Source: Mucilaginibacter corticis (GTDB taxonomy: Bacteria; Bacteroidota; Bacteroidia; Sphingobacteriales; Sphingobacteriaceae). Taken from it: a DNA stretch of 64,000 bases. Below are positions 1 to 12,545 of this stretch, one piece after another (the stretch's first letter is position 1; each line of letters begins with the position of its first letter). A model generated the notes under the pieces. It saw only the letters and a program-made list of their open reading frames with translations. It ran no database searches and had not been told where the DNA came from. The stretch is taken from assembly GCF_007558865.1 (NCBI RefSeq), contig NZ_VLPK01000001.1:1-64000 (forward strand), read 5' to 3'. The translations under genes and the position numbers were made by a program.

Positions 1-1
1 A

Positions 2-790
2 GCCATTAGGGGCCCGGAATATTCTTTATTTGATGTTGCGAAACAAGATATAGAGCTGGCACGTAAATTCGGACTACCCATCTCTATGCACGTTGGTTGC
101 GGAACATTCGCCGATAAATACAAAGCAGTGCAACAATTAGCCAAAGCAAATTTATTGGGCCCGGATATGAATTTTGCGCACTGTAATTTCCTGATCGGGG
201 AAGATTTCAGGTTGCTGGCAGACCATGGTTGCTCGGTATCCATCACGCCCGAAGTCGAAATGCAAATGGGTTTAGGTTTTCCGGCTACCGGTAAAGCCAT
301 TGCAGCCGGCATGGCGCCCTCATTAGGCGTGGATGTGGTAACAGCCGCAGGCGGCGACATCTTTACGCAAATGCGCATCGCGCTGCAAACTGAACGGGCA
401 TTGGCTAACAATAGCGTATTGCTTTCAGGTGAAATGCCGCAAAAGATCGGTCTAAACGCTGCTGACGCTTTGACCTGGGCCACTATTAATGGAGCCAAAG
501 CATTGCAATTGGACAAAAAAACCGGTTCTTTAACACCTGGTAAACAAGCCGATCTGATCCTGTTACGCACCGATTTGTTGAATATCGCGCCGGTGGTCAT
601 AAACCCGGTTAATTCAATTGTATCACAGGCCAGTTCAGCCAATATTGATACTGTATTCGTAGCGGGTAAAGCAGTTAAACGAAATGGTAAACTGGTTGAC
701 CGCGATTTGGCAGCACTCCGTGCGAAAGCTAAAGCATCTTCTGTTTACATCTATGAAAAAGCATTGGTAAATAGCCTTCACGCCGGTTAA
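2..790 (+). CDS. amidohydrolase family protein (5' end outside window)
   Basis: The frame is open from the first bases, so the gene starts upstream and only the C-terminal part (about 262 residues) is seen. It resembles metal-dependent amidohydrolases of the cytosine deaminase/TrzN/SAH deaminase group. An SMHVGCG strand carries a candidate metal-ligand His, an NFAHCNFL motif carries a second, and GVDVVTAAGGD supplies the conserved Asp. The C-terminus (GSLTPGKQADLILL) is the usual beta-sandwich return of this superfamily. The substrate cannot be told. The internal ATG at 86 falls inside the barrel and is unlikely to be the true start. Confidence 0.85.
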   Translation, partial: AIRGPEYSLFDVAKQDIELARKFGLPISMHVGCGTFADKYKAVQQLAKANLLGPDMNFAHCNFLIGEDFRLLADHGCSVSITPEVEMQMGLGFPATGKAIAAGMAPSLGVDVVTAAGGDIFTQMRIALQTERALANNSVLLSGEMPQKIGLNAADALTWATINGAKALQLDKKTGSLTPGKQADLILLRTDLLNIAPVVINPVNSIVSQASSANIDTVFVAGKAVKRNGKLVDRDLAALRAKAKASSVYIYEKALVNSLHAG

Positions 791-850
791 AACACGCTTT
801 AACTTTATTTTAGCAAGTAATATTTTATCTTTAAATATGATGAAAGCAGG

Positions 851-1417
851 ATGAGGATACTTTTTAATATCGAAAGGCTTATTAATCCTTCGCAGGAGGA
901 AAAAGCAGCGCTGGAGCGTATTGTTAAAACCAGGATGCTTAAAAAGAATGAACATTTTTTAAATGAAGGTGATCTGTGTGAAACGATCGCCTTCATCGAA
1001 AAAGGGAGCGTTCGATATTATTACCAGTTAGAGGACCGGCAAGTTTGTAAGGATTTTCTACTGGAGAATGGCTTGGTTTGTTCTTTCGGCAGCCTGTTTT
1101 CGCAAGAACCATCAACGATCTATATTCAGGCGCTGGAAGATACCGAACTTGCGGAGATCAATTACGAAGACATACAGCAATTGTGTGAAAGCTATCCCAT
1201 TTGGAATAAGTTGGCCCGCATTATCATTCAGGAACAGGTGATCCGCGCCGAAAAGCGTGAAGGCGCCTTTTTGAAAGACCTGCCCGAAACCCGATTTCAG
1301 TCACTGATTGCTGAACACCCCACCATCTTTAAGCGTGTCCCCCTACAATATATTGCCAGTTATTTAGGCATGACACGGGAGACCTTGAGCCGTTACCGCA
1401 ATAAATTAAACAAATGA
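851..1417 (+). CDS. Crp/Fnr family transcriptional regulator
   Basis: 188 residues. The N-terminal cyclic-nucleotide-binding-like beta-roll spans about residues 20-115 (NEGDLCETIAFIEKGSVRYYY). The C-terminal helix-turn-helix spans about 163-186 (QYIASYLGMTRETLSRYRNKL). This is the short Bacteroidota type that usually lacks both the cAMP-contacting Arg-Ser pair and the Fnr cysteine cluster, so the ligand is unknown. A TATCTTTA box at about 829 may be its -7 element. A Fnr/Crp-type palindrome begins eight bases after its stop codon and precedes the next gene, so it may regulate that gene. That link is inference. Confidence 0.9.
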   Translation: MRILFNIERLINPSQEEKAALERIVKTRMLKKNEHFLNEGDLCETIAFIEKGSVRYYYQLEDRQVCKDFLLENGLVCSFGSLFSQEPSTIYIQALEDTELAEINYEDIQQLCESYPIWNKLARIIIQEQVIRAEKREGAFLKDLPETRFQSLIAEHPTIFKRVPLQYIASYLGMTRETLSRYRNKLNK

Positions 1418-1424
1418 TAATCTG

Positions 1425-1471
1425 TTTGTGATCTGAATCAAATGCAGGCAGTGCTGTATTTGGTTTCTTTG
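1425..1471 (+). promoter_or_regulatory. Fnr/Crp-type operator plus -7 box, promoter of the APH-fold gene
   Basis: A palindrome GTGAT-CTGA-ATCAA lies at 1428-1441, between the Fnr (TTGAT-N4-ATCAA) and Crp (TGTGA-N6-TCACA) consensus. After exactly 22 nt comes TTTCTTTG (1464-1471), a match to the Bacteroidota -7 box TAnnTTTG. With the box centred at -7 the operator centre falls near -41, the class II activator position. The start point would be about 1475, nearly at the ATG (1476), so the mRNA may be leaderless. A near copy with the same geometry lies at 5537-5583. Confidence 0.7.
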
Positions 1472-1475
1472 CAAT

Positions 1476-2471
1476 ATGGAAACTATATTAACTGTGATAC
1501 CTGCTGATAAATCAGCAGCCGTTAAAACGGCTTTATTACAAGCATTTCAAACAGAAGAACCTGAAAGCATCGAAATACTGAGCGGTGGCCTTTCTACAGC
1601 TTTGGTTTATAAGATAGGTATTCGGGGAAAGCATTATCTGCTTAGATTAGTTATGGAAGTAAACGCCATGAACGATCCTAAGCGACAATTTACCTGCCTG
1701 CGTTTGGCAGCTTCGGCAGAAATTGCCCCGAAAGTTTATTATACATCGGTGACAGATGGCATCTCTATCACTGATTTTATCTACACGCAACCGCAAACTG
1801 ACAAAACCAATCTGCTACATGAACTGGCAACAACCGCTAAAAAAATTCATGAGCTGCCCTTATTTCCGTCATTCATGAATTTCCTTGAGGGTATTGATCT
1901 ATTTATTGTCGGATTCAAAGCCTCAGGTTTGTTTTCGGCGACAGCCACAGCGGAACTGTTTGCTTTGTATCATAAAATCAGGACAACTTATCACTGGCAA
2001 GAAGTCGATCTGGTTTCCAGTCACAATGACTTGAATCCTAATAATATTCTTTTTGATGGTGCCAAAAGCTGGATCATTGACTGGGAGGCGGCTTTTTTAA
2101 ATGACCGTTACGTGGATTTAGCGATTATCGCGCAATCCTATGCCCGCAAGCCGGAACAACAGCATTTATTGTTAAAGACCTACTTCGACGCAGAGCCTAC
2201 CGATTACCAAAAAGCACGTTTTTTTCTGATGCAACAAGTTTGCCTGCTCTACTATGGACTGATGATGTTCCGGTTGGTTACCGACCATGTTGTTACTGAT
2301 ACTGACCTTTCTGCACCTTCCCCCGAAGACTTTTATGCTTTGCTTGCCGGTGGTCAGGTATCCCTGAATAATGCTGAGGGACAATTACAATATGGGAAGG
2401 TGCTTTTTAATCAGCTTCTGATCAATTTGCGGTCGCAGAAATTTGAAGAAGCATTAGAGCTTTTATCGTAG
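1476..2471 (+). CDS. APH-fold phosphotransferase family protein
   Basis: 331 residues with the aminoglycoside phosphotransferase/choline kinase fold. The catalytic loop SHNDLNPNNILF sits near residues 187-198 and the metal-binding IDWEAAFLNDRYVDLA near 205-220, as in the family. The N-terminal lobe has ILSGGLSTALVYKI in place of a P-loop. Members of this family phosphorylate sugars, choline, homoserine or drugs; nothing here points to drug resistance. It lies alone behind a Fnr/Crp-type promoter and follows a Crp/Fnr gene, so its expression probably tracks that regulator. Confidence 0.8.
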   Translation: METILTVIPADKSAAVKTALLQAFQTEEPESIEILSGGLSTALVYKIGIRGKHYLLRLVMEVNAMNDPKRQFTCLRLAASAEIAPKVYYTSVTDGISITDFIYTQPQTDKTNLLHELATTAKKIHELPLFPSFMNFLEGIDLFIVGFKASGLFSATATAELFALYHKIRTTYHWQEVDLVSSHNDLNPNNILFDGAKSWIIDWEAAFLNDRYVDLAIIAQSYARKPEQQHLLLKTYFDAEPTDYQKARFFLMQQVCLLYYGLMMFRLVTDHVVTDTDLSAPSPEDFYALLAGGQVSLNNAEGQLQYGKVLFNQLLINLRSQKFEEALELLS

Positions 2472-2546
2472 TCTACAATAAGGTATTGCACTGGTAAGCC
2501 CTTGTGACGTAGTTTTTGGTTTACACATTTGATTCAAACTACAACG

Positions 2547-2618
2547 CCAATTCAGGCAGTGGTTATGGCAGTTCATGCTAATGCTTCTTTCCCGGAATGA
2601 CGGGGCAACGCAATTTTG
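2547..2618 (+). promoter_or_regulatory. LytTR-type direct repeat and -7 box (site A)
   Basis: CCAATTCAG (2547-2555), 12 nt, then GCAGTTCAT (2568-2576). The second repeat closely fits the known LytTR half-site [TA][AC][CA]GTTN[AG][TG], and the 12-nt spacer is typical for two LytTR domains bound side by side. After 34 nt comes CAATTTTG (2611-2618), an imperfect -7 box. The -33 region is poor, as expected for an activated promoter. The same layout occurs at 5675-5746 and 9015-9086. Confidence 0.75.
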
Positions 2619-2655
2619 TCCCATCATTCAATAATTAAAAGAAAAAAGCAAAACA

Positions 2656-3354
2656 ATGAAAACTCAAAAGATCAATTTAATGGTTAGCTGCCTTGCAGCA
2701 TTGATGATCAGCTTTAGCAGCTGTTCAAAATCTACAGATGTTAAGCCCGGAGCTAATGGCACAGGGAACACCAGCAATACCGGCACTACAGGAAATCCGG
2801 GAAGTACAGGGAACACCAGCAACACCGGCACTGGTAATACTGGAAACACTGGCAACACTGGTAGTACTGGTAGTACTGGTAATCAAGGCAATTCCGGCGG
2901 CGGAAAACATGTTGTAGACGCTAAACTGGTAGGTACTTGGTTATGGACGCAGGGCAGCGATGCCGCGTACTATGATGCTAACGGAACCTACGTAGGCGAT
3001 GCCTACGGATTTGCCACCCAGTTTACAATCAAAGCCGATGGTACCGGCAGTTGCTACATGCACCTGTATTCTTCGCTTGGGCCCGGCTCGACCATCGTAG
3101 TGGACATATCCTCTACCGGCTTTTTTGAAACCGATAGCCAGGGACATTTGGGTTACTTTCCAACTGCCGGCACTTATGAATCAAGCAATAGCGGCAGCAG
3201 AAACCTGTACCCAAGCGAATTGTATGATGAAGCGAATAAATCAGGCAAGGTATTTCTATACCAGGATGTAAAAGTAACCAGCCAGGGCGGCCGTAACTGT
3301 TACACCACTACCGCGAGTGATGGTACTGTCGACACTTATTTTAAAGTCAACTAA
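2656..3354 (+). CDS. lipoprotein with Gly/Asn/Thr/Ser-rich repeat linker
   Basis: 232 residues. A type II signal peptide ends at the lipobox FSSCS. Residues about 34-82 are a low-complexity linker of NTG/STG/NTS units encoded by tandem near-repeats (2764-2886). The rest (about 85-232) looks like a compact beta domain beginning KLVGTWLWT, reminiscent of lipocalin-like or DUF-type Bacteroidota lipoproteins; the family is not recognised. It sits behind LytTR site A and its stop overlaps the start of the next gene (TAATG), so the two form an operon. Surface exposure is inferred from the linker. Confidence 0.75.
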   Translation: MKTQKINLMVSCLAALMISFSSCSKSTDVKPGANGTGNTSNTGTTGNPGSTGNTSNTGTGNTGNTGNTGSTGSTGNQGNSGGGKHVVDAKLVGTWLWTQGSDAAYYDANGTYVGDAYGFATQFTIKADGTGSCYMHLYSSLGPGSTIVVDISSTGFFETDSQGHLGYFPTAGTYESSNSGSRNLYPSELYDEANKSGKVFLYQDVKVTSQGGRNCYTTTASDGTVDTYFKVN

Positions 3355-4103
3355 TGGAAAAGCTATCAGGTAAAGTGGCCGTGGTCACCGGCGCATCAAA
3401 AGGGATTGGTGCTTCTATAGCTAAGAGCCTGGCTGCAGAGGGTGCATCAGTAGTAGTTAATTACGCCTCGTCCAAAGAAACCGCCGAAGAAATCGTATCC
3501 GGTATTGTTGGCAACGGCGGCAGGGCGATTGCTGTAAAAGGCGATGTTGCTTCCCCGGCGGATATTAGTCGGCTGTTCGAAGAAACAATGAATGCATTTG
3601 GCGCGGTGGATATTCTGGTAAATAACGCGGGCGTTTACAAATTCGGCGCTATAGAGCAAGTTAGCGAAGCAGATTTTCATCACCATTTCAATACCAATGT
3701 TTTGGGCGTTTTGCTAACCACACAAGCGGCGCTTAAAAGCTTTAATGAAAATGGTGGTAGTATTATCAACATCGGTTCATTAGTAAGTACTATCGCACCG
3801 GCTTACAGCTCAGTTTATTCAGCAACCAAGGGTGCTGTTGATGCTATAACTCATGTATTGTCTAAGGAACTTGGGCCAAGAAACATTCGCGTTAACTCCA
3901 TAAACCCCGGCATGGTTGTTACAGAAGGCACAGTTAACGCTGGAATTATCGGCAGTGACTTTGAGGCGGAAAACATCCGCCTATCACCGCTGGGCCGCAT
4001 CGGCCAGCCCGAAGATATCGCTATGATGGCCATCTTCCTGGCATCAGAAGAGTCACGCTGGCTAACCGGCGAAACCTTGCTGGCAGGCGGCGGGGTTCGT
4101 TAA
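3354..4103 (+). CDS. SDR family oxidoreductase
   Basis: 249 residues, a classical short-chain dehydrogenase/reductase. The Rossmann motif TGASKGIG is at about 12-19, NNAG near 90, the catalytic Ser in IINIGS, and Y155-x3-K159 (YSATK). The C-terminal DIAMMAIFLASEESRWLTGE is typical of FabG-like members. The cofactor is probably NADP(H), given the basic/Ser-rich loop after strand 2; the substrate is unknown. The start codon overlaps the stop of the preceding lipoprotein gene, so both are co-transcribed from LytTR site A. Confidence 0.92.
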   Translation: MEKLSGKVAVVTGASKGIGASIAKSLAAEGASVVVNYASSKETAEEIVSGIVGNGGRAIAVKGDVASPADISRLFEETMNAFGAVDILVNNAGVYKFGAIEQVSEADFHHHFNTNVLGVLLTTQAALKSFNENGGSIINIGSLVSTIAPAYSSVYSATKGAVDAITHVLSKELGPRNIRVNSINPGMVVTEGTVNAGIIGSDFEAENIRLSPLGRIGQPEDIAMMAIFLASEESRWLTGETLLAGGGVR

Positions 4104-4108
4104 GCAAT

Positions 4109-4145
4109 AATAGCCAATATTTCGTTTCGCGAAGTATTGGCTATT
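4109..4145 (+). terminator. stem-loop after the SDR gene
   Basis: AATAGCCAATA (4109-4119) pairs perfectly with TATTGGCTATT (4135-4145). The stem continues inward through a wobble and four more pairs to a 5-nt TTTCG loop. No U-run follows, so termination strength is uncertain, but it is placed just after the SDR stop. Confidence 0.6.
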
Positions 4146-4196
4146 TGCGTTTATCCTGAAAATGCGAAATTTGTATATTGTAATAAATAGCAAATT

Positions 4197-4967
4197 TTGG
4201 AAGAAAATAATGATCAATCTAACCTGCTGGTAAGTCTGAGGGTATTGAACCAGATAGGCGCATCCATTATCTCTGAACAAAGTATTGAAGAGATGATCGA
4301 TACCGTGTATTACAATGTTAACCAATTGATAGATGCCTATTCGTTTGCGATTGGTATTTACAACCCGGTTTCAGAGCGGATCGAGTACATAGGCGCAAGA
4401 GAAAACAATATAAAGCTGCCTGCTTTTTCCATCTACGCCCATGACCGGGAACGATTTTCAGGATGGATCTTTACACATAAAAAAGAAGTCATCATTAATG
4501 ACTATGCAACTGAATATGCCTTATATGTACCGCGCCCGGTAACCCCACTGCAAGGTATGGTTCCTGCCTCATGTATGTATGTTCCGTTATTTGTTCAAAA
4601 AGAAATTATTGGCATTTTATCTGTAAGAACTATGGTAAAAAATGCCTATTCAGCACGGTCTCTTGAATTTTTAAAAACACTGAGTGTATTTATTTCCAAG
4701 GCAATTGAAAACAACCGTGCAAAGTCTCCCCAGCGAGAAGAGGTTCGCAGCACACCGGCTAATTATCACTTAAATCCGCTATCGGGGAGAGAAATAGAAG
4801 TATTGAACCTGCTGGCAAAAGGTTTTGCTAATAAGGCTATTGCCGGTGAACTTTTTGTAGCTGCAAGTACGGTAAAAACGCATACCCTGAATATTTATCA
4901 AAAGCTGGAAGCTGCCAATAGAACCGAAGCTATTGTAAAAGCAAAACAATACGGGTTGATCAACTAA
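4197..4967 (+). CDS. GAF domain LuxR-type transcriptional regulator
   Basis: 256 residues. The N-terminal GAF domain covers about residues 10-175 (YSFAIGIYNPVSERIEYIG ... VPLFVQKEIIGILSVRT). The C-terminal LuxR/GerE helix-turn-helix covers about 193-255 (LSGREIEVLNLLAKGFANKAIAGELFVAASTVKTH). The first available start is TTG at 4197; an in-frame TAG lies just upstream at 4188 and the next in-frame ATG would cut into the GAF domain. It is a solitary regulator; the ligand is unknown. A GAAATTTG box near 4166-4174 could be the -7 element. Confidence 0.88.
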   Translation: MEENNDQSNLLVSLRVLNQIGASIISEQSIEEMIDTVYYNVNQLIDAYSFAIGIYNPVSERIEYIGARENNIKLPAFSIYAHDRERFSGWIFTHKKEVIINDYATEYALYVPRPVTPLQGMVPASCMYVPLFVQKEIIGILSVRTMVKNAYSARSLEFLKTLSVFISKAIENNRAKSPQREEVRSTPANYHLNPLSGREIEVLNLLAKGFANKAIAGELFVAASTVKTHTLNIYQKLEAANRTEAIVKAKQYGLIN

Positions 4968-5039
4968 AATCCACCATTTGGTTGAGAACGCCCCCTAATA
5001 TCCCCATTAACTTTGTTTCATAATTAAAAAGAAAGATTT

Positions 5040-5529
5040 ATGAACAACTTATTTAACAACACCGCATTACATGTCCATAGCGAAAACATGCTGGAACGCT
5101 CCCGCTGGTATGGCCCTAATTTAATGACATTTTTAACTACATCTGCCGAAACCAATGGCCAGTTTTCATTGATCAAATGCGTATTGCGCAAAGGTTTTGA
5201 ACCGCCACTTCACGTCCATAGCCGTGAGGACGAAAGCATTTTCATACTATCCGGTGAAATAAACTATGAGATAGGCGAGAAAACGGTTACCGCTAAAGCC
5301 GGCGATTATGTACACTTACCCAGGTCCGTATAATTTGATGAGTGATACCGCTACATTTATACTCCTGATCACACCCGGTGGTTTCGAAGAAATGTTTCTT
5401 CAATTTAGCCGGCCTGCATTGGCTATGGAGTTGCCACCGGTTCCGACAGAAAAACCCGGTCAGGAATTTTTTGAGCGGATGGAAAAGCTTAACAAGCAAT
5501 TAGGCATAACCGTGTTGCCCGTGTTTTAA
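5040..5529 (+). pseudogene. cupin domain protein broken by a frameshift
   Basis: Two overlapping frames together make one about 163-residue cupin. Residues 1-97 (frame of 5040) carry the first cupin motif (PPLHVHSREDESIFILSGE) and end in a premature TAA at 5331-5333. The second part (visible from 5308) continues YNLMSDTATFILLITPGGFEEMF. Continuity is restored by skipping one base near 5322-5330. It may be a true pseudogene, a sequencing error or, less likely, a programmed shift. A TAACTTTG -7 box lies at 5008-5015 without a good -33 element. Confidence 0.7.
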
Positions 5530-5536
5530 CCTTCTC

Positions 5537-5583
5537 TTTGTGATTTGAATCAAATGTCCGGCTTTTTCTGGCGCTTACCTTTG
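5537..5583 (+). promoter_or_regulatory. second Fnr/Crp-type operator plus -7 box
   Basis: GTGAT-TTGA-ATCAA lies at 5540-5553, and the 20 bases 5537-5556 match 1425-1444 at 19 positions. After exactly 22 nt comes TACCTTTG (5576-5583), a perfect -7 box. No full gene follows directly: there is only a five-codon ORF (5602-5616), then a palindrome and the LytTR site of the YceI operon. The transcript would therefore read into that operon. Confidence 0.7.
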
Positions 5584-5637
5584 TTCTGAAATAAAAAAAG
5601 CATGAAGCGCATTTGAATTTAAGGCATTACTACGATC

Positions 5638-5659
5638 ATTAACCGGGGCCCCGGTTAAT
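5638..5659. repeat. 22-bp perfect palindrome in the YceI operon leader
   Basis: ATTAACCGGGG followed directly by its exact reverse complement CCCCGGTTAAT. It lies between the Fnr/Crp-type promoter and the LytTR promoter. It could be an operator or an RNA hairpin that attenuates the upstream transcript; a short A/T-rich tract (TTTAAAA) follows. Confidence 0.6.
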
Positions 5660-5674
5660 TTAAAAGTACCAACT

Positions 5675-5746
5675 ACAATTCAGTCGACAGGAATTACAGT
5701 TCATCCATATACACCTATGGCCGGACCGGCCGCCTGTGCACTTTTG
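5675..5746 (+). promoter_or_regulatory. LytTR-type direct repeat and -7 box (site B)
   Basis: ACAATTCAG (5675-5683), 12 nt, ACAGTTCAT (5696-5704), then 34 nt to CACTTTTG (5739-5746). The second repeat matches the LytTR half-site consensus exactly and the first with one mismatch. An odd palindrome GGCCGG-A-CCGGCC lies inside the -33/-7 spacer. It drives the YceI-OmpA-DUF5602-RidA operon. Confidence 0.78.
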
Positions 5747-5775
5747 TCTAAACTTTAAACAACAGAAAAAACGTC

Positions 5776-6432
5776 ATGAAAAAATTATTATCTATTACAC
5801 TATTAATTGCGTCGCTGGCCAGTTGCCGGCAAAACAAAACAGAGGTTAAATACCAGGTTAATGAAAACGTATCAAAAGCCTTATGGAAAGGTTCGGCTAC
5901 GGATCATTTTCACATCGGCTCTTTTAAGGTAACCGGTAATCTAAACGCTGATTTACAAGGAAATGTGACCGGCGGTAATTTTACAATACCTGTGCTTTCG
6001 ATCCAAGATTTTGACCTAACGGATCCCATCAGGCAAACCTTACTTGCCGACCTAAAAAGCGCTAACTTTTTTAATGTGGCCATTCACCCAAACGCCGAAT
6101 TCAAAATCACAAAAATTGATACCTGTATAAAAGCAGATACCAACGCGATCGCAGGAGCAAATTATCTGGTGACAGGCAACTTTAGCATGGTTGGGCAAAC
6201 CCACACCCTATCATTTCCGGCAAAAATCAGCTATATAGCCGATAGCCTGAGAGCCGAGGCGAAATTTAATCTTGATCGCACCAAATGGGGAATGAAGATC
6301 TACAGTGATCCTAAACAAAAGTTGTTTATCTATCCTGATGTAAATATTCATTTGGATGTAAGGGCAAAGAAACAGGCAAGGATATCACCCCTGGCTATTC
6401 TTGCACCTAATGCAATTCCGGTACAGCAATAA
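5776..6432 (+). CDS. YceI-like lipoprotein
   Basis: 218 residues. The signal peptide ends with lipobox LASCR. The mature part has the YceI pattern: ALWKGSATDHFHIGSFKVTG, then FTIPVLSIQDFDL, LLADLKSANFFNVAIHPNAEF, GNFSMVGQTHTLSFPAKI and the closing FNLDRTKWGMK. YceI proteins are lipocalin-like barrels that bind isoprenoid lipids and are often induced by acid, redox or membrane stress. It is the first gene of a four-gene operon behind LytTR site B, 23 nt before the next gene. Confidence 0.88.
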   Translation: MKKLLSITLLIASLASCRQNKTEVKYQVNENVSKALWKGSATDHFHIGSFKVTGNLNADLQGNVTGGNFTIPVLSIQDFDLTDPIRQTLLADLKSANFFNVAIHPNAEFKITKIDTCIKADTNAIAGANYLVTGNFSMVGQTHTLSFPAKISYIADSLRAEAKFNLDRTKWGMKIYSDPKQKLFIYPDVNIHLDVRAKKQARISPLAILAPNAIPVQQ

Positions 6433-6455
6433 TTACCTAAGCTAAATTTAAAAAA

Positions 6456-7745
6456 ATGAAAAAATATATACTATTTATGCTTTGTGTATTGCCTTTAGCC
6501 GGCAATGCCCAAGGCTTATTCGGCAGGCTTAAAGAGCGTGCCGCTCAAACGGCAACAGATTTATTGATCAATAAATCTCAGCAGGTTGCCGAGCGAAAGA
6601 TCGACAAGGCGATAACACCCTCAAAAAATGAGCGGGCCCTGATCGAACAACCGTCTACCAAACACCCGAAGACCATTAACGATAATCCGGCAAATGACTT
6701 TAAATTTTATACCCATTATGACTATGTGCCCGGACAAATGGCATTTTATGCTGAGAGTTTTGACAGCGCTAACCTGGGCGAATTACCACAAGGTTGGAAT
6801 TCTAATGGTAACGGCGCGGTAGTTAACTTAGCGGGCATCCCTGGTAACTGGTTAAAGATGGATCAAAACGCCAGTTTTTTATCCGCTAATACCGCTAAAG
6901 CCGGCAAAGAGTTTACGATTGAATTTGACTTAGTATCCAATTTTATAAATGGAAGCTATTTATTGCCTCAATATCAGATAGGAATCTTAAGCAGCGGTAA
7001 GGTAGCAGCTAACGATAATTCTTTATTAAAAGATCAGCGTGGCGCTAAAATGCTGGAGCTCGAAATTCGCCCTGGTTTTGATGAACATACTTTTATACAA
7101 CTTAAAAGCTATAATGCCGGACGGGAGTATTTTGCAGGACCGATAACTGCTTATCCTTCCCTTGAAAATTATAATGGCAAAGTGATGCATGTGGCAATAT
7201 GTGTACAGCATCAAAGAGTGCGGATGTGGATCAATGGCGACAAGGCGTTTGATGTGCCTAATGCAATAAAAGAAGATGGAGATTTTAATCAGTTTTTCTT
7301 CCACAGCGATGCCAGTAATTATAAAAACAGCGATGTCGGGTTTTATTTGGGAAACGTAAAGATGGCTAATGGCCTGCCTGACACCCGAAGCAAGTTGCTA
7401 AACGAAGGTGCCTACAGCACAACAGGTATACTTTTCGATCTAAATAAAGCAGAGGTTAGCCCACAATCTTTCGGTGTGCTGAATGAAATAGCACAGATAT
7501 TAAAAGATAATACCACCCTAAAATTAAAAATAACCGGGCATACGGATGCGGATGGGAAAGATGCCGCTAACAAAATATTAAGTATCGACCGCGCAAATGC
7601 AGTTAAAGATCTGCTTGTCAAACAATATGCTATTGAAGCAGAAAGACTGCAAACTGATGGAAAAGGTTCATCCCAACCTGTGGCCGATAATAAAACCAGT
7701 ATTGGCAAAACGCAAAACCGACGCGTTGAATTCACAAAAATTTAG
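6456..7745 (+). CDS. OmpA family protein
   Basis: 429 residues. A signal peptide (cleavage near GNAQG) is followed by a basic helical stretch (LFGRLKERAAQTATDLL). A concanavalin/LamG-like central region covers about 85-310. A C-terminal OmpA peptidoglycan-binding domain covers about 325-429 (LKITGHTDADGKDAANKILSIDRA ... KTQNRRVEF). It probably links the outer membrane to peptidoglycan. It lies in the YceI operon. What the central domain binds is not known. Confidence 0.88.
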   Translation: MKKYILFMLCVLPLAGNAQGLFGRLKERAAQTATDLLINKSQQVAERKIDKAITPSKNERALIEQPSTKHPKTINDNPANDFKFYTHYDYVPGQMAFYAESFDSANLGELPQGWNSNGNGAVVNLAGIPGNWLKMDQNASFLSANTAKAGKEFTIEFDLVSNFINGSYLLPQYQIGILSSGKVAANDNSLLKDQRGAKMLELEIRPGFDEHTFIQLKSYNAGREYFAGPITAYPSLENYNGKVMHVAICVQHQRVRMWINGDKAFDVPNAIKEDGDFNQFFFHSDASNYKNSDVGFYLGNVKMANGLPDTRSKLLNEGAYSTTGILFDLNKAEVSPQSFGVLNEIAQILKDNTTLKLKITGHTDADGKDAANKILSIDRANAVKDLLVKQYAIEAERLQTDGKGSSQPVADNKTSIGKTQNRRVEFTKI

Positions 7746-7782
7746 AAATCCCTTTATTAATAATTCTTAACCCAAAACAACA

Positions 7783-8553
7783 ATGAAAAATCAAATTTCA
7801 GTAACAGTAGCTATATTAATGATAGCACTTGCATCTTGCAAAAAAGAAACAGTAACCCACCTTCCTGATCAATTTAAAGGCACCGCGGTGGCCCTGGGTA
7901 ATGGACACGCATGGTCATGGGTCGAAACAGATGCTCAAAACAAACCTGTAAACGTAGGCATCACTTTTGAAAAAACTGCTTTTTCAAATTTACCTACAGA
8001 TGGGGATGAGCAGGAGTACATACTAACCATGCCTGCTGAAAAAACCGCTACTCCTTTTCAAATGATAGTTTTAGACTGGAACCCGCACGGCCACCCGCCT
8101 GAGCATGTATATGACAAACCACATTTTGATATGCACTTTTATATGATGCCTGAAAGTGACCGTTTGCAAATACCTGATTTTGAAACCGACTCCACCGGGT
8201 TTGTTAACTATCCTGCGGCGGCTTATTTGCCACAAAACTATGTTCCAATACCGGGCGGTGAGCCTGAAATGGGAACCCACTGGGTTGATGTTACTTCGCC
8301 CGAGCTTTCACAAACCAATCCGCAGCCGTTTACACAAACATTTATATATGGCAGCTATAATGGCAACGTTACTTTTTATGAGCCAATGGCAACACTTGCA
8401 TTTTTAACCGGCACTAAAACTTTTGAACGTGCCATACCACAACCGGTTAAGTTCAGTCGCGATGGTTATTTCCCAACTAAAATGAGCTTTACCGATAAAG
8501 GAACCACATTTGAAGTTACGCTGCATGACTTTATTTACCATTCAAAATCATAA
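7783..8553 (+). CDS. DUF5602/TTHB210-like lipoprotein
   Basis: 256 residues with a lipobox (ALASCKK). The mature part has a His/Asp-rich core (NPHGHPPEHVYDKPHFDMHFYMM, read in two pieces) that resembles the DUF5602 (TTHB210-like) family and could hold a metal. Later conserved blocks include MGTHWVDVTSPEL and FIYGSYNGNVTFYEPMATL. It is in the YceI operon, 37 nt after the ompA-like gene. Function unknown; the family call is from memory and moderate. Confidence 0.65.
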   Translation: MKNQISVTVAILMIALASCKKETVTHLPDQFKGTAVALGNGHAWSWVETDAQNKPVNVGITFEKTAFSNLPTDGDEQEYILTMPAEKTATPFQMIVLDWNPHGHPPEHVYDKPHFDMHFYMMPESDRLQIPDFETDSTGFVNYPAAAYLPQNYVPIPGGEPEMGTHWVDVTSPELSQTNPQPFTQTFIYGSYNGNVTFYEPMATLAFLTGTKTFERAIPQPVKFSRDGYFPTKMSFTDKGTTFEVTLHDFIYHSKS

Positions 8554-8575
8554 TTAAACCAAAAAACACATAACA

Positions 8576-8968
8576 ATGGAAAAGAAAATAGTAAACCCAT
8601 GGACCTGGCAAGATAACTTTGGTTATGCCCAGGCGGTAGAAGTTAAGCATAACCAGGGCACCCTGTATTGTTCAGGACAAACAGCCATGACCGCCGATGG
8701 AAAACCGGCAGGTGGCAACATGAATGATCAAATATTATTAAGCCTGCAGAACCTGGAGAAAGTAATTCACCAGGCTGGTTATAAACCTGCAGGCGTTGTA
8801 CGCCTTAATTTGTACACTACATCAATAGCCGATTTCTTTGGCGCGTATGGTGTATTAGCCGCCTGGATGCAGCAACACAAAATAGTACCATCAAGCACAC
8901 TGCTTGAAGTTAAAGCGCTTGCCTTCCCCGAACTCTTGGTTGAAATAGAAGCTACTGTAGTCGGATAA
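8576..8968 (+). CDS. RidA family protein
   Basis: 130 residues with the YjgF/YER057c/UK114 fold: GTLYCSGQTAMTADGKPAGG near the N-terminus, then QILLSLQNLEKVIHQAG and a C-terminal ALAFPELLVEIEATVVG. The usual catalytic Arg of RidA (in the CPARS-type motif) is replaced in the SSTLLEVKALAFPELLVEIE segment, so imine deaminase activity is uncertain. It is the last gene of the YceI operon, with a terminator directly after it. Confidence 0.88.
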   Translation: MEKKIVNPWTWQDNFGYAQAVEVKHNQGTLYCSGQTAMTADGKPAGGNMNDQILLSLQNLEKVIHQAGYKPAGVVRLNLYTTSIADFFGAYGVLAAWMQQHKIVPSSTLLEVKALAFPELLVEIEATVVG

Positions 8969-8987
8969 TCATCGTAAAATTTCAGAG

Positions 8988-9014
8988 AGCTCCGCCAATT
9001 TAGCGGGGCTTTTT
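8988..9014 (+). terminator. rho-independent terminator after the RidA gene
   Basis: AGCTCCGC (8988-8995) pairs with GCGGGGCT (9003-9010), one G-U pair, 7-nt loop, then a T run to 9014. Its T run abuts the first LytTR repeat of the next operon at 9015. Confidence 0.85.
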
Positions 9015-9086
9015 ACAATTCATACATCGTTTTTAACAGTTCATACATCATCTTATATAATTAAACACATACAAGTTGGATACTTG
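9015..9086 (+). promoter_or_regulatory. LytTR-type direct repeat and -7 region (site C)
   Basis: ACAATTCAT (9015-9023), 12 nt, ACAGTTCAT (9036-9044), then 34 nt to GATACTTG (9079-9086), a weak -7 box sharing TTGT with sites A and B. A small inverted repeat GATAC-TT-GTATC overlaps it. It heads the operon that encodes the LytTR regulator itself, which suggests autoregulation. Confidence 0.75.
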
Positions 9087-9106
9087 TATCATAAAACTTA
9101 AACATC

Positions 9107-9781
9107 ATGACAACACCAAGATTTAACGTATTTAATCAAATACACAAAGCCCTGAGGGCCTTAATGTTTAATACCGTAATGCAAATACAACAAACCGACA
9201 TGAACGACACCAACGCTTCTGCACCGGTTTTAATACAAACCGCATTATTGTTAGAGATTTTTGACGCGCATGCTTACTACGAGGATAACTTTATTCTTGC
9301 CGCTGCAGAAAAACATGATCCGGCGCTTGTTGCCGAGTTTGAAAGCGAACACGTAACCGATCTGCAACTAACAGAAAAACTACGTGAACAATTAAGTGCA
9401 TATGAAATAGCTGATGACAAGCGTGCGGCAGGCAATGGCATTTATTATGCATTGAATGATTTTGTTGCCTTTAACCTGCACCACATGAACAAAGAAGAAT
9501 CGCTGTTGAATCAAATGCTTTGGGCAAACTACACCGACGAAGAAATAGTAGCTATGGAACATGCTATAACCGCGCACATCCCGGCTGAAAAAATGCCGGT
9601 ATACTTTGAATGGATGATAAAAGGTATTAACGACCCCGAATTGGCTGCCTGGTTAAAAGCAGTGCAATTTGGTGCACCTGATTTTGTATTTAATGGCTTA
9701 TTCGAAGCTTGCGGTGTATTTTTATCGGCACCGCGTTTTGACGTTCTAAAAAGCAATATCGCAGCGCCTGTTTGCGCGTAA
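9107..9781 (+). CDS. hemerythrin-like (HHE) domain protein
   Basis: 224 residues, helical, cytosolic (no signal peptide). The ligand pattern fits a diiron hemerythrin-like four-helix bundle: H13, H55-x3-E59, H82, H126-x3-E130, with extra His at 125, 152 and 157. Such domains bind O2, NO or iron, or act in Fe-S repair. It is the first gene of an operon with a histidine kinase and a LytTR regulator (45 nt to the kinase ATG) and carries LytTR site C. A role as redox input or as target of the kinase system is inference. Confidence 0.75.
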   Translation: MTTPRFNVFNQIHKALRALMFNTVMQIQQTDMNDTNASAPVLIQTALLLEIFDAHAYYEDNFILAAAEKHDPALVAEFESEHVTDLQLTEKLREQLSAYEIADDKRAAGNGIYYALNDFVAFNLHHMNKEESLLNQMLWANYTDEEIVAMEHAITAHIPAEKMPVYFEWMIKGINDPELAAWLKAVQFGAPDFVFNGLFEACGVFLSAPRFDVLKSNIAAPVCA

Positions 9782-9825: not shown

Positions 9826-10884
9826 ATGAAATATTTCAGATTTGCCAGGTGGGATTACTTAGTACTCGTTTTGAGCGTGTACCCTTTTATGATAATAGTG
9901 GCCTACCTCATCTTAGGTGATGACTATTTCACACCCGTAACCTTTTTTTATGCTACATTATTGGCATTGCCGGTAAGTACTGCATCCTGGGTTACGCACA
10001 TCATGACGGCTAATTTCCTGCGTGATTTGCTGCCCAGTCATACTTCAACCACGAAGCGTATACTGATACAATTACCTATTTATTTTATACTTACCCAGAT
10101 AGGCATTTGTTTTGGTACTTATTTGGTGTTCCATTTGGTACATTTAGCGCACGAGCCGATGAGCTGGCAATCGTTTAAGCCGTTGATTTATGCCGGCTTT
10201 ATTTTAAACGTGATTGCCACCAGTTCGCATGAAGGTATGATCCTGTTCGACAAATGGAAAATATCGCTTGTAGAAACAGAGCAATTAAAAAAGATCAATT
10301 TGCAGCGCCAACTGGATAGTCTGAAAAGCCAGGTAAACCCGCATTTTTTATTCAACAGCCTTAATTGCCTGTCGGCATTAATAAACACTGATCCGCCAAA
10401 GGCCAGTGAATTTTTGGATGAAATGAGCAAAGTGTACCGCTATCTGTTACGTTCAAACGATACGGAGCTTACCACACTCACCTCCGAATTGCAGTTTGCC
10501 CACTCTTTTTTCCATATGCTAAAAACACGCTATGGCGGCGGCATTGCGCTGCATGTAGACGTAAACCAGGATTATAATGACTATTTATTACCGCCCTTAA
10601 CCTTGCAATTGTTGATAGAAAACGCGGTTAAGCATAATATGATATTGAAAGATCAGCCATTAATAATTAAAGTATTTACATCAGCCGGCGGTGTTTTAAC
10701 GGTGACAAATAATCTGCAAAAAAAGAACTCAAAGATCTTGTCAAACAAGGTGGGGCTGCAAAACATAGCTACAAAGTATCAGCTATTGCACCATGTTGAT
10801 ATTGACATTAAAAATGGTCCGGACGATTTTTCGGTGACCGTTCCATTAATAAAAAACCAGGTATATGAAAGTATTAATAGTTGA
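9826..10884 (+). CDS. LytS/YehU-type sensor histidine kinase
   Basis: 352 residues from the ATG at 9826; a TTG-started extension to 9772 overlaps the previous gene and is unlikely. Four predicted membrane helices occupy about residues 10-145. They are followed by the His_kinase domain with phospho-acceptor H173 in QVNPHFLFNSLN, then an HATPase region with LQLLIENAVKHN and a short VGLQNIATKY segment. There is no obvious extracellular sensor, so the membrane helices or a partner probably sense the signal. It overlaps the regulator gene by 20 nt. Confidence 0.9.
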   Translation: MKYFRFARWDYLVLVLSVYPFMIIVAYLILGDDYFTPVTFFYATLLALPVSTASWVTHIMTANFLRDLLPSHTSTTKRILIQLPIYFILTQIGICFGTYLVFHLVHLAHEPMSWQSFKPLIYAGFILNVIATSSHEGMILFDKWKISLVETEQLKKINLQRQLDSLKSQVNPHFLFNSLNCLSALINTDPPKASEFLDEMSKVYRYLLRSNDTELTTLTSELQFAHSFFHMLKTRYGGGIALHVDVNQDYNDYLLPPLTLQLLIENAVKHNMILKDQPLIIKVFTSAGGVLTVTNNLQKKNSKILSNKVGLQNIATKYQLLHHVDIDIKNGPDDFSVTVPLIKNQVYESINS

Positions 10885-11644
10885 GGACGAACAACTGGCA
10901 GTAGAAAAGCTTACCCAAACGCTGCAGTTGGTAGCACCCAATGCTACGGTAATTGCATCGGCCGACAGCGTTTCTGACTCTGTAAACTGGCTGCGTAATA
11001 ACCCCGGCAAAGCCGATCTTATCCTGATGGATATTGAATTGGCCGACGGGCAAAGCTTTGCCATTTTTGATGAAGTACAGGTTGATTGTCCGGTAATATT
11101 TACTACATCTTATGATGAGTACGCGCTAAAAGCATTTAAAGTTAACAGTATTGATTATTTGCTTAAACCCATACAGCAGGCCGAACTAAAAGGCGCGCTG
11201 AATAAACTTCGCTTTTTTAAAGGCGACGATAGCATAGCAGACGACCAGACACTAAAGATAGAGCACCTGGTGCGCGAGCTGCAAAAGCAGTCAGGCATGG
11301 TTGAATACCGTAAGCGTTTTTTGGTTAAGCATTTACAAAAATTGGTACCGATAGACGTAGAAACGATAGCCTATTTTTACAGCGACGAGCGGGTTAACTT
11401 TTTCAGGTGCTATGATAACAAAAGCTACATTGTGGATTATACCATGGACGATATTGAACAAGTGGTTGATCCTAAGTTATTTTTTCGCCCAAACCGGGCA
11501 CTCATCGTATCGGTTAATAGTGTAGATCAGATCCAGCCTTACTTTGGCAATCGTTTAGCATTGCGTTTAAAACCTGAATATGAAAAAGAAGCGTTGGTAA
11601 GCCGCGAAAAAGTTACCGAATTTAAGATCTGGATGGGGAAATAA
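10865..11644 (+). CDS. LytTR family response regulator
   Basis: 259 residues. The receiver domain (1-120) has acidic E7-D8, phospho-acceptor D56 (LILMDIEL), a switch Thr/Ser in FTTSYDEYALKAF and a K in DYLLKPI. The LytTR DNA-binding domain (about 155-255) contains VPIDVETIAYFYSDERVNFF and FFRPNRALIVSVNSV. It is the partner of the overlapping kinase gene. LytTR domains bind 9-bp direct repeats with 12-nt spacing, and three such repeats occur in this window, including its own operon promoter. Confidence 0.93.
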   Translation: MKVLIVEDEQLAVEKLTQTLQLVAPNATVIASADSVSDSVNWLRNNPGKADLILMDIELADGQSFAIFDEVQVDCPVIFTTSYDEYALKAFKVNSIDYLLKPIQQAELKGALNKLRFFKGDDSIADDQTLKIEHLVRELQKQSGMVEYRKRFLVKHLQKLVPIDVETIAYFYSDERVNFFRCYDNKSYIVDYTMDDIEQVVDPKLFFRPNRALIVSVNSVDQIQPYFGNRLALRLKPEYEKEALVSREKVTEFKIWMGK

Positions 11645-11654
11645 TTGGTTGGAA

Positions 11655-12545
11655 ATGAAGAAGGGAATTATTGTAGTTTGCGGTGCCACCGGTAACCAGG
11701 GCGGCGCGGTGTCACGTAGTTTACTGGCCGATGGAAAGTGGCATGTTATCGCCATAACCCGCGATATTAATTCGGAAAAAGCGAAAAAACTGGAAGAATT
11801 AGGGGCCGAGATCAGGTTTGCTGATCTGGAAGATGAGGCCTCATTAATAAATGTTTTTAAAAACGCTTACGGCGTTTTTGGCGTTACACAACCCTGGGCT
11901 CCTGATTACAGCAAATGCTACCAGGATAAAGAACTTACCCAGGGATTAAACATTATAAACGCCTGCAAAACGGCCGGCATAAAGCACCTAGTGATGTCAT
12001 CGGTGATCAACTATGATAATTTGCCAAAAGGAATAGGCCCGTATGACAGTAAGTTAAAGATTGAAGCCTATTTGAAATCCCAAAAGATGTTGTACACCAT
12101 TGTCCGTTGCGCGCAATTTATGGATAACATCGGTTCACATTTCTTCCCGGTAAAAAATGGCGCGGTAAAAGGCTTTGTCGCACCGGATGTAAAGGTGCCT
12201 TATATTGCCTGCAAGAACATAGGGAGTTTTAATACGGTTATATTTAACGACCCTAATCGTTTTTATTGCAGCACCGTTAACCTGGTGGGCGACTTCATTT
12301 CCGGCAATGAGATAGCCGGTATTTTACAAAAAATTCGCCATGAGCCTTTTGTATACAGGGCTACTTCAAAATTTATATTGCGCCTCTTCGCGCCCGAATT
12401 TCACCAGATGCGGGCCATGTATGAAAAGATTGGACGGCCGCCATATGCCTCAGAAGTAACAGATGTGATCAACCGTTCCATGCTGATGCTTGATGAGCCT
12501 ATCACGATCAAAGATCACCTGATCGCGGCTGGCTATGCCGCTTAA
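11655..12545 (+). CDS. NmrA-like NAD(P)-binding protein
   Basis: 296 residues from the ATG at 11655. The Rossmann motif CGATGNQGG lies at the N-terminus, followed by ITRDINSEKAKKL, ADLEDEASLINVFKNAYGVFGVT and the NmrA-typical YDSKLKIEAYLKS. Such proteins act as redox sensors or atypical NAD(P)H-dependent reductases; the SDR Tyr-x3-Lys is not obvious. It begins 10 nt after the LytTR regulator and is probably the last gene of that operon. Confidence 0.85.
   Translation: MKKGIIVVCGATGNQGGAVSRSLLADGKWHVIAITRDINSEKAKKLEELGAEIRFADLEDEASLINVFKNAYGVFGVTQPWAPDYSKCYQDKELTQGLNIINACKTAGIKHLVMSSVINYDNLPKGIGPYDSKLKIEAYLKSQKMLYTIVRCAQFMDNIGSHFFPVKNGAVKGFVAPDVKVPYIACKNIGSFNTVIFNDPNRFYCSTVNLVGDFISGNEIAGILQKIRHEPFVYRATSKFILRLFAPEFHQMRAMYEKIGRPPYASEVTDVINRSMLMLDEPITIKDHLIAAGYAA

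Follow-up and report, generated by a model that had tools for sequence, protein, structure and literature searches.

The locus and its three paired repeats

Here, we describe three promoters in a 64,000-nucleotide stretch of Mucilaginibacter corticis (RefSeq assembly GCF_007558865.1, contig NZ_VLPK01000001.1, positions 1 to 64,000 of the forward strand; hereafter, the window) that share a paired direct repeat, CAATTCA-N14-CAGTTCA, at a fixed distance from a -7-like box. The third lies ahead of an operon encoding a LytTR response regulator, the proposed reader of all three sites. A sequence-only reading had noted the sites and their common spacing, and exact matching reproduced all three 30-bp sites, each with an 8-mer at 34 nt:

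2547-2576, + strand: site 1 operator, CAATTCA-N14-CAGTTCA, CCAATTCAGGCAGTGGTTATGGCAGTTCAT (exact match)
2611-2618, + strand: -7-like box CAATTTTG of the site 1 promoter (placed by its offset after the 30-bp site; peak at offsets 34-36)
5675-5704, + strand: site 2 operator, paired direct repeat, ACAATTCAGTCGACAGGAATTACAGTTCAT (exact match; diverged copy on contig C14)
5739-5746, + strand: -7-like box CACTTTTG of the site 2 promoter, CACTTTCG on C14 (read from the sequence)
9015-9044, + strand: site 3 operator, paired direct repeat ahead of the regulator's own operon, ACAATTCATACATCGTTTTTAACAGTTCAT (exact match)
9079-9086, + strand: -7-like box GATACTTG of the site 3 promoter, the weakest of the three

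Exact copies of CAATTCA-N14-CAGTTCA start at positions 2548, 5676 and 9016 of the window, with the CAATTCA and CAGTTCA half-sites starting 21 bp apart in all three, and each -7-like 8-mer begins 34 nt after the 30-bp site, which is 35 nt after the 7-mer half-site. Allowing up to three mismatches, the window holds six copies, a number reached in none of 100 dinucleotide shuffles. Across the whole genome (5.34 Mb), there are four exact copies compared to ~0.04 expected under uniform base composition: three in the window and one on contig C14, in a diverged copy of site 2. The 8-mers CAATTTTG, CACTTTTG and GATACTTG are relatives of the Bacteroidota -7 box TAnnTTTG. Their description as weak -7 boxes stands in the sense of a degenerate TAnnTTTG, but the TTGT they were said to share does not extend to a general rule, as the C14 copy reads CACTTTCG.

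Three gene clusters follow the sites, with a hairpin between the second and third:

2656-3354, + strand: putative lipoprotein with a long N/T/G/S-rich repeat stretch near its N terminus (no Pfam family above cut-off)
3354-4103, + strand: short-chain dehydrogenase/reductase (SDR; PF13561, PF00106)
5776-6432, + strand: YceI-domain protein (PF04264)
6456-7745, + strand: OmpA-domain protein (PF00691)
7783-8553, + strand: TTHB210-like protein (PF18197)
8576-8968, + strand: RidA/Rid family protein (PF01042)
8988-9013, + strand: terminator-like hairpin with loop CAATTTA, between operon 2 and site 3 (read from the sequence)
9107-9781, + strand: hemerythrin-domain protein (PF01814)
9826-10884, + strand: LytS-type histidine kinase (PF06580)
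10865-11644, + strand: LytTR response regulator (receiver and LytTR domains), proposed reader of the three sites (PF00072, PF04397; clade analysis)
11655-12545, + strand: NmrA-like NAD(P)-binding protein (PF05368)

The clusters are tightly packed: stop and start codons overlap in the lipoprotein-SDR pair, intergenic gaps in the YceI-OmpA-TTHB210-Rid cluster are 22-37 nt, and the kinase and regulator genes of the hemerythrin-kinase-regulator-NmrA cluster overlap by 20 nt. Pfam confirmed the YceI, OmpA and Rid assignments of the second operon and replaced an earlier DUF5602 label by TTHB210-like (PF18197). It also bore out the claim that a LytTR regulator gene lies behind site 3 (PF00072, 56.2 bits against a cut-off of 30.2; PF04397, 60.3 bits against 22.6). 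With an N-terminal receiver, a C-terminal LytTR domain and a LytS-type kinase (PF06580) in the overlapping upstream gene, this protein has the makeup of a LytTR two-component regulator. The hairpin at 8988-9013 was absent from the terminator scan listing.

Half-site spacing and promoter phasing

LytTR operators have been defined as paired ~9-bp direct repeats 10-13 bp apart (PMC11347149), and the window sites, 9-mers with a 12-bp gap, fall within this definition. To control for spacing, we counted exact CARTTCA pairs in 25 ortholog loci (492 kb): 14 occurred at N14 and 3 at N13, compared to a single pair across the remaining spacings between N5 and N27. Both the repeat-pair definition and the spacing control uphold the earlier statement that half-site and 12-nt spacer agree with known LytTR sites. 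Among 26 hand-picked sites, conservation reached positions outside the selection criteria, with C at +9 in 22 and T at +16 in 20.

The distance to the promoter is similarly constrained. In the ~120 nt after 39 sites, there were 10 perfect TAnnTTTG matches, and 9 of these 10 boxes lay at offset 34-36 from the proximal half-site. The 39 sites were drawn from 59 by dropping intragenic ones (three in L095/L096 were kept) and collapsing overlapping arrays; several of the nine phased promoters are homologous, and by our own count ~6 gene families are represented. In a cleaner test, we chose sites by their half-sites alone in 15 ortholog-bearing genomes and scored a box when it matched at least 5/6. 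The 32 intergenic sites had a box at 34-36 in 8 cases and at 55-57 in 7 (0.29 expected each), and the 15 intragenic sites in 1 and 0 cases, respectively. In regulator-less genomes of the same genus, 26 of 28 sites examined were intragenic and boxes occurred at 34-36 in none and at 55-57 in 2. Phasing was evaluated for 47 of the 58 listed places, the other 11 being mostly simple repeats and, in two cases, the L095 sites. The 55-57 class is the same geometry plus one more degenerate 21-bp unit in between, such that the site occupies a fixed position 34-36 nt from TAnnTTTG, or 55-57 nt with an extra period.

In flavobacteria, sigma-A uses TAnnTTTG as its -7 box (PMC9723704). Assuming, from the same source, that the box spans -12 to -5, the centers of the half-sites fall near -51 and -72, and the midpoint of the pair near -61.5. 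Promoters directly 5' of the kinase and regulator genes of the clade described below (L074-L098, L321 and L324) often read TAnnTTGY instead (7 of 15 by eye), a sequence known as the SM5 box, which in Flavobacterium psychrophilum has been assigned to an alternative sigma factor (PMC9723704).

Association with one clade of regulators

We then compared relatives of the regulator taken from 80 loci. In 13 of the 24 closest (L074-L097, including Niastella, Terrimonas, Parafilimonas, Chitinophaga, Spirosoma, Fibrisoma and Persicitalea), a CARTTCA-N14-CARTTCA pair with at most one mismatch began 75-239 bp upstream of where the first kinase is aligned to start. We built a tree of 121 regulators, leaving out the own-genome row L072 (the window) and a partial match, L073. 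Such a site preceded the operon in 15 of the 28 regulators that form one clade (support 99/89) and in none of the 93 regulators outside it, where the best site had two mismatches. Clade members are 47-69% identical to the window regulator, and the 15 site-bearers include the window and a second Mucilaginibacter genome, G001. The site label needs seven changes on the tree, which implies that sites were lost or diverged repeatedly; none of 500 label shuffles needed so few. Restricting the comparison to the 80 loci, without short-flank rows, the window and G001, left 13 of 26 in the clade compared to 0 of 54 outside. Because the site of one further member, L087, stands before a lipoprotein gene heading the operon, 15 is a lower bound.

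Within the genus, an ortholog of the regulator is present in 2 of 149 genomes, its own and G001 (69% identical; next best, 43%), and both carry the site before the kinase-regulator operon. The sequence-only reading had looked to related Mucilaginibacter for conservation. Genus-wide conservation did not hold and was rejected as a test because only these two genomes have the regulator; the site instead tracks the regulator, and both bearers have it. In G001, the kinase-regulator operon and the hemerythrin-Rid-YceI operon diverge from each other and have a paired site each, followed at offset 35 by the boxes TATCTTCA and CAACTTTG, respectively.

Across a draw of 395 genomes from the phylum, 8 had an ortholog, 12 a promoter-anchored site with at most one mismatch and 4 both (p 3e-5); without the window's own genome, the site occurred in 3 of 7 ortholog-bearers compared to 8 of 387 others (p 5e-4). 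The draw supplied five new genomes, G460 and G530 not being counted as such since they are L080 and L093. Three of these (G414, G196 and, with one mismatch, G254) have the site ~105-116 bp before the aligned first-kinase start, and two (G410 and G352) have it 0.6-0.7 kb upstream of a kinase. An operator before the regulator's own operon, as autoregulation entails, is thus kept in 15 of 28 clade members and, directly upstream, in 3 of the 5 new genomes. Because the same paired sequence precedes this regulator's genes in many distant relatives, it is very probably the binding site of this LytTR regulator.

LytTR residue positions 174, 176, 180, 228, 229 and 241, among those listed, are specific to the clade and serve as a lead only; the LytTR core motif was displayed for part of the rows, owing to a fixed search window. 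One locus labeled as a Bifidobacterium breve metagenome-assembled genome (L117) has a regulator that groups with those of Bacteroidota and is probably a misassigned contig.

Recurrent target genes

The genes behind the sites, assigned by Pfam on representatives only, belong to a small number of families. Hemerythrin genes have a site before them, or in what appears to be their operon, in the window, G001, G102 and G410; in G414, a site lies ~0.28 kb upstream of a hemerythrin gene with no matching box, and in L081 the site near such a gene lies in an overlapping open reading frame (ORF). Rid genes are found in the same arrangement in the window, C14, G001 and G410, YceI genes in the window and G001, and OmpA-like genes in the window, L074, L077 and L110. 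TTHB210-like genes accompany sites in the window, on C14, in Chitinophaga eiseniae (L087) and in Niastella vici (L239), cytochrome c proteins in L238 and relatives and in L239, and propeller-type sensor kinases in L074-L077. That the same families recur although gene order differs speaks for a real regulon, and their nature suggests a role in redox or envelope stress.

The sequence-only reading had described a local regulon. Three operons at the locus are consistent with this, but in some Chitinophagaceae and Spirosomataceae sites also occur beyond the locus.

A partial duplicate on contig C14

Contig C14 (20,000 of its 21,083 bases were read) matches parts of window positions 1-9028 at 88-92% identity. 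It is without the phosphotransferase, lipoprotein, SDR, YceI and OmpA genes and the hemerythrin-kinase-regulator-NmrA operon. Site 2 is kept, there directly 5' of the TTHB210-like and Rid genes, and at the position of site 3 there is a single half-site-like unit, AAAATTCATACATCATC, followed by other genes. The paired site is therefore retained with target genes and not at the lost regulator operon, a single case that fits control by the regulator but proves little.

The same duplicate of the window's left end is found as L031 1-4225, with a GC content of 41.3% compared to 42.9% for the window. Contigs C1 and C14 share their initial sequence, suggesting that the assembly broke within a repeat. 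A cupin-like ORF recognized by eye (5040-5333) encodes 97 aa in the window, where it ends at an early stop, compared to 166 aa on C14.

Specificity of the motif and contrary evidence

With at most one mismatch, the promoter-anchored pattern matched in 7 of the 149 genus genomes, including both regulator-bearers and five without the regulator. At three mismatches, it gave 176 matches compared to 16 for a reversed control in 17 genomes (G000, G001 and 15 via ortholog loci), and 251 compared to 134 in 59 regulator-less genomes of the same genus. The background at three mismatches is high, and for this reason 'large regulon' counts in Niastella and others are only suggestive; some of the Niastella matches are simple CAGTTCA repeats. 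The unanchored motif proved too weak for genome scans and was discarded: CARTTCA-N14-CARTTCA has at least one match in 56 of 100 genus genomes, and outside G000 and G001, 26 of 28 sites are intragenic.

Several observations weigh against control of the three promoters by the neighboring regulator. All three -7 boxes in the window are imperfect, as is the G001 kinase-operon box TATCTTCA (4/6), and site 3 overlaps a sigma70-like TTAACA-N17-TATAAT (9033-9061), one of 21 sigma70-like matches found in 10.3 kb, compared to 24.5 expected. Thirteen of the 28 clade members lack a site (at most one mismatch) immediately upstream of the kinase, and, apart from L087, the remaining 12 are unexplained or diverged. 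Second regulator copies in G460 (58%), G410 (56%) and G352 (45-54%) likewise have no such site before their operons. In the tree, the label of the window was set by hand, as hemerythrin leads its operon, and 39 of the 93 negatives (11 own paralogs and 28 same-genus rows) were covered by 1.5-kb flanks. In the phylum draw, the eight promoter-anchored matches among 387 ortholog-less genomes include four inside ORFs of at least 120 codons; the other four include a simple repeat in G462 and a perfect site in G399 (L304), which is unexplained and has no ortholog above threshold.

Finally, sites 1 and 2 may in part share a common origin as duplicated promoters. The 60 nt 3' of these sites are 50% identical in register, compared to 26% (sd 6%) for random pairs, while the 60 nt 3' of site 3 are 35% and 37% identical to the other two. 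As a set, they should therefore not be counted as wholly independent events. The evidence from other genera is unaffected by this possible kinship.

Alternative explanations

One alternative, which we judge improbable, places site 2 and perhaps the others inside a transcribed leader, with a better promoter upstream: TACCTTTG at 5576-5583, itself preceded by a CRP-like box (5540-5556). TACCTTTG matches TAnnTTTG perfectly and is kept on C14, and CRP-like sequence is enriched in the window, but a -7 box phased at 34-36 nt is also seen at unrelated promoters of different families, and a 22-bp palindrome (5638-5659) intervenes between the upstream box and site 2.

It is quite unlikely that the sites are operators of this regulator that repress or hold the promoters. 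The proximal half-site of site 3 does overlap the sigma70-like -35, and CoxC is a LytTR repressor with repeats that overlap -35 (PMC11347149). However, owing to the fixed distance, the half-sites fall 5' of the -33 region at promoters whose -7 boxes are weak, a placement described for activated LytTR promoters (PMC11347149, PMC6193735, PMC4227749), and the box these resemble, TAnnTTTG, is that of flavobacterial sigma-A (PMC9723704).

That the sites are read by another, or several, of the genome's LytTR regulators instead of the neighboring one appears very unlikely. There are 13 LytTR matches in this genome, members of the family have broadly similar half-sites (PMC11347149, PMC6193735), and the perfect promoter-anchored site in G399 stands without an ortholog above threshold. 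Against this, none of the 11 other full-length paralogs in the genome has a site with at most one mismatch in its 1.5-kb flanks, the sites examined in ortholog-less genomes of the genus are nearly all intragenic (26 of 28), and the site precedes the orthologous operon in other families.

Chance likeness or recent duplication of one promoter without regulatory meaning, for which the kinship of sites 1 and 2 and the duplication of site 2 on C14 might speak, is at most a marginal prospect, since in other genera the spacing is strict and both the phasing and the clade association hold; a chance origin of the sites was rejected on these tests.

Other features around the sites

CRP/FNR-like boxes GTGATnTGAATCAAATG lie at 1428-1444, 5540-5556 and 2526-2542 (two exact, one reverse with two mismatches), and the window contains five matches with at most three mismatches, as many as in none of 100 shuffles. 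Both exact boxes sit 23 nt 5' of a TTTG (by eye), and a Crp/Fnr-like gene, its family also assigned by eye, lies at 851-1417. The perfect 22-bp palindrome ATTAACCGGGGCCCCGGTTAAT (5638-5659), between the upstream TACCTTTG box and site 2, is kept on C14; the fold of the leader RNA before site 2 is not unusual (z -0.74). An inverted repeat, ATACAAGT-TGGAT-ACTTGTAT, spans the -7 region of the regulator's own promoter (9069-9089).

Proposed mechanism

Taken together, we consider it highly probable that a tandem dimer of the regulator encoded at 10865-11644 occupies each of the three sites, near -51 and -72, and activates the operons behind them, the regulator's own among them. Directly established are the sites and their spacing, the phasing to the promoter, the co-occurrence with the regulator clade and the recurrent target families. 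From these sequence patterns we infer binding, and activation over repression, the latter being preferred because LytTR regulators mostly act as activators from positions upstream of -35 (PMC11347149).

The kinase (9826-10884) would phosphorylate the regulator in response to a signal, and the hemerythrin, cytochrome c, YceI and Rid-type targets point to one of a redox or envelope-stress type. The activated dimer would occupy two CARTTCATnC half-sites 21 bp apart, or two helical turns, on one face of the DNA, and contact RNA polymerase at the weak -7 boxes, raising transcription of the lipoprotein-SDR, YceI-OmpA-TTHB210-Rid and hemerythrin-kinase-regulator-NmrA operons. Because the last of these is the regulator's own, the circuit would include positive feedback, that is, positive autoregulation. 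The earlier proposal of an autoregulated three-operon regulon is supported by the sites, the clade link and the recurrence of targets, with binding predicted from sequence, but its confinement to the locus fails in some Chitinophagaceae and Spirosomataceae.

Relation to known systems

Among known systems, the closest in phylum are the LRS-like LytTR operons of Bacteroides thetaiotaomicron and B. ovatus, where repeats are predicted 11 bp before TGTA/TGTG-19 bp-TATCTTTG (PMC6193735). As in the window, the repeats are predicted to be autoregulatory and lie 11 + 4 + 19 bp = 34 nt from the -7 box. Unlike the window sites, the half-sites are 11 bp long, TCCGGTATTCA / ACCGGAAATCA, and 11 bp apart; the regulators are membrane-bound LytTR proteins without a kinase, and the sites are in silico predictions (PMC6193735). 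An LRS comprises a LytTR protein without a receiver and a membrane inhibitor gene, and the window regulator, which has a receiver and is partnered by a kinase, is not of this kind. The window sites are not the first LytTR operator proposed for the phylum, as repeats in these two Bacteroides operons were already predicted (PMC6193735). Judged by titles and the starts of abstracts in the open-licence literature, we found no other earlier description of LytTR-type repeats in Bacteroidota, and nothing in that literature tying LytTR to hemerythrin or to Chitinophaga.

In geometry, the sites resemble those of PlnC/PlnD of Lactobacillus plantarum, LytTR response regulators that bind as a cooperative dimer just upstream of the promoter, to 9-bp tandem repeats separated by 12 bp, and control an autoregulated local operon set (PMC2714321). 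The differences are the half-site, TACGTTAAT instead of CARTTCATnC, the -35/-10 promoters and the role in bacteriocin quorum sensing (PMC2714321). Operators of RcoM-1 and CoxC have three direct repeats at two-turn spacing, like some arrays here (the 55-57 class), but the half-site is TTCNNGCA / TTNNNGCN, the regulators are CO-sensing one-component proteins and CoxC represses (PMC11347149). The repeats of AgrA of Staphylococcus aureus are centered at ~-60 (PMC4227749), similar to the window midpoint of ~-61.5 computed with TAnnTTTG at -12 to -5. As read from the sequence, the LytTR motif is FFRCHNS in AgrA, unlike FFRPNRA in the window protein. AgrA serves Agr quorum sensing, and ComE serves peptide-induced competence in Firmicutes; the pneumococcal ComE box, aCAnTTcaG-N12-aCAgTTgaG, appears to have half-sites and a spacer nearly as here.

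A pairing of LytS and LytTR proteins tied to hemerythrin, Rid, YceI, TTHB210-like and cytochrome c genes offers a handle on what such kinases sense, and an operator with tested spacing and phasing makes regulons of this clade predictable from sequence. A wider synthesis is tentative, and we hold it with slightly more doubt than conviction: one LytTR clade across several Bacteroidota families (Chitinophagaceae, Spirosomataceae, Hymenobacteraceae and 2 of 149 Mucilaginibacter) could use a stable operator code (CARTTCATnC, 21-bp period, last half-site 35 nt before TAnnTTTG) to command a portable redox and envelope stress set of hemerythrin, Rid, YceI, TTHB210-like, OmpA-like and cytochrome c proteins and extra propeller kinases. 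Together with the Bacteroides operons at the same 34 nt (PMC6193735), this might amount to one phylum-wide promoter rule for LytTR activators, and the TAnnTTGY box, shorter by one base, at part of the kinase promoters might mark a separate sigma factor. The operator type itself, paired 9-bp repeats with a 12-bp spacer upstream of a promoter, is already known (PMC2714321, PMC6193735); what is new is this half-site, its tie to one regulator clade and its recurrent targets.

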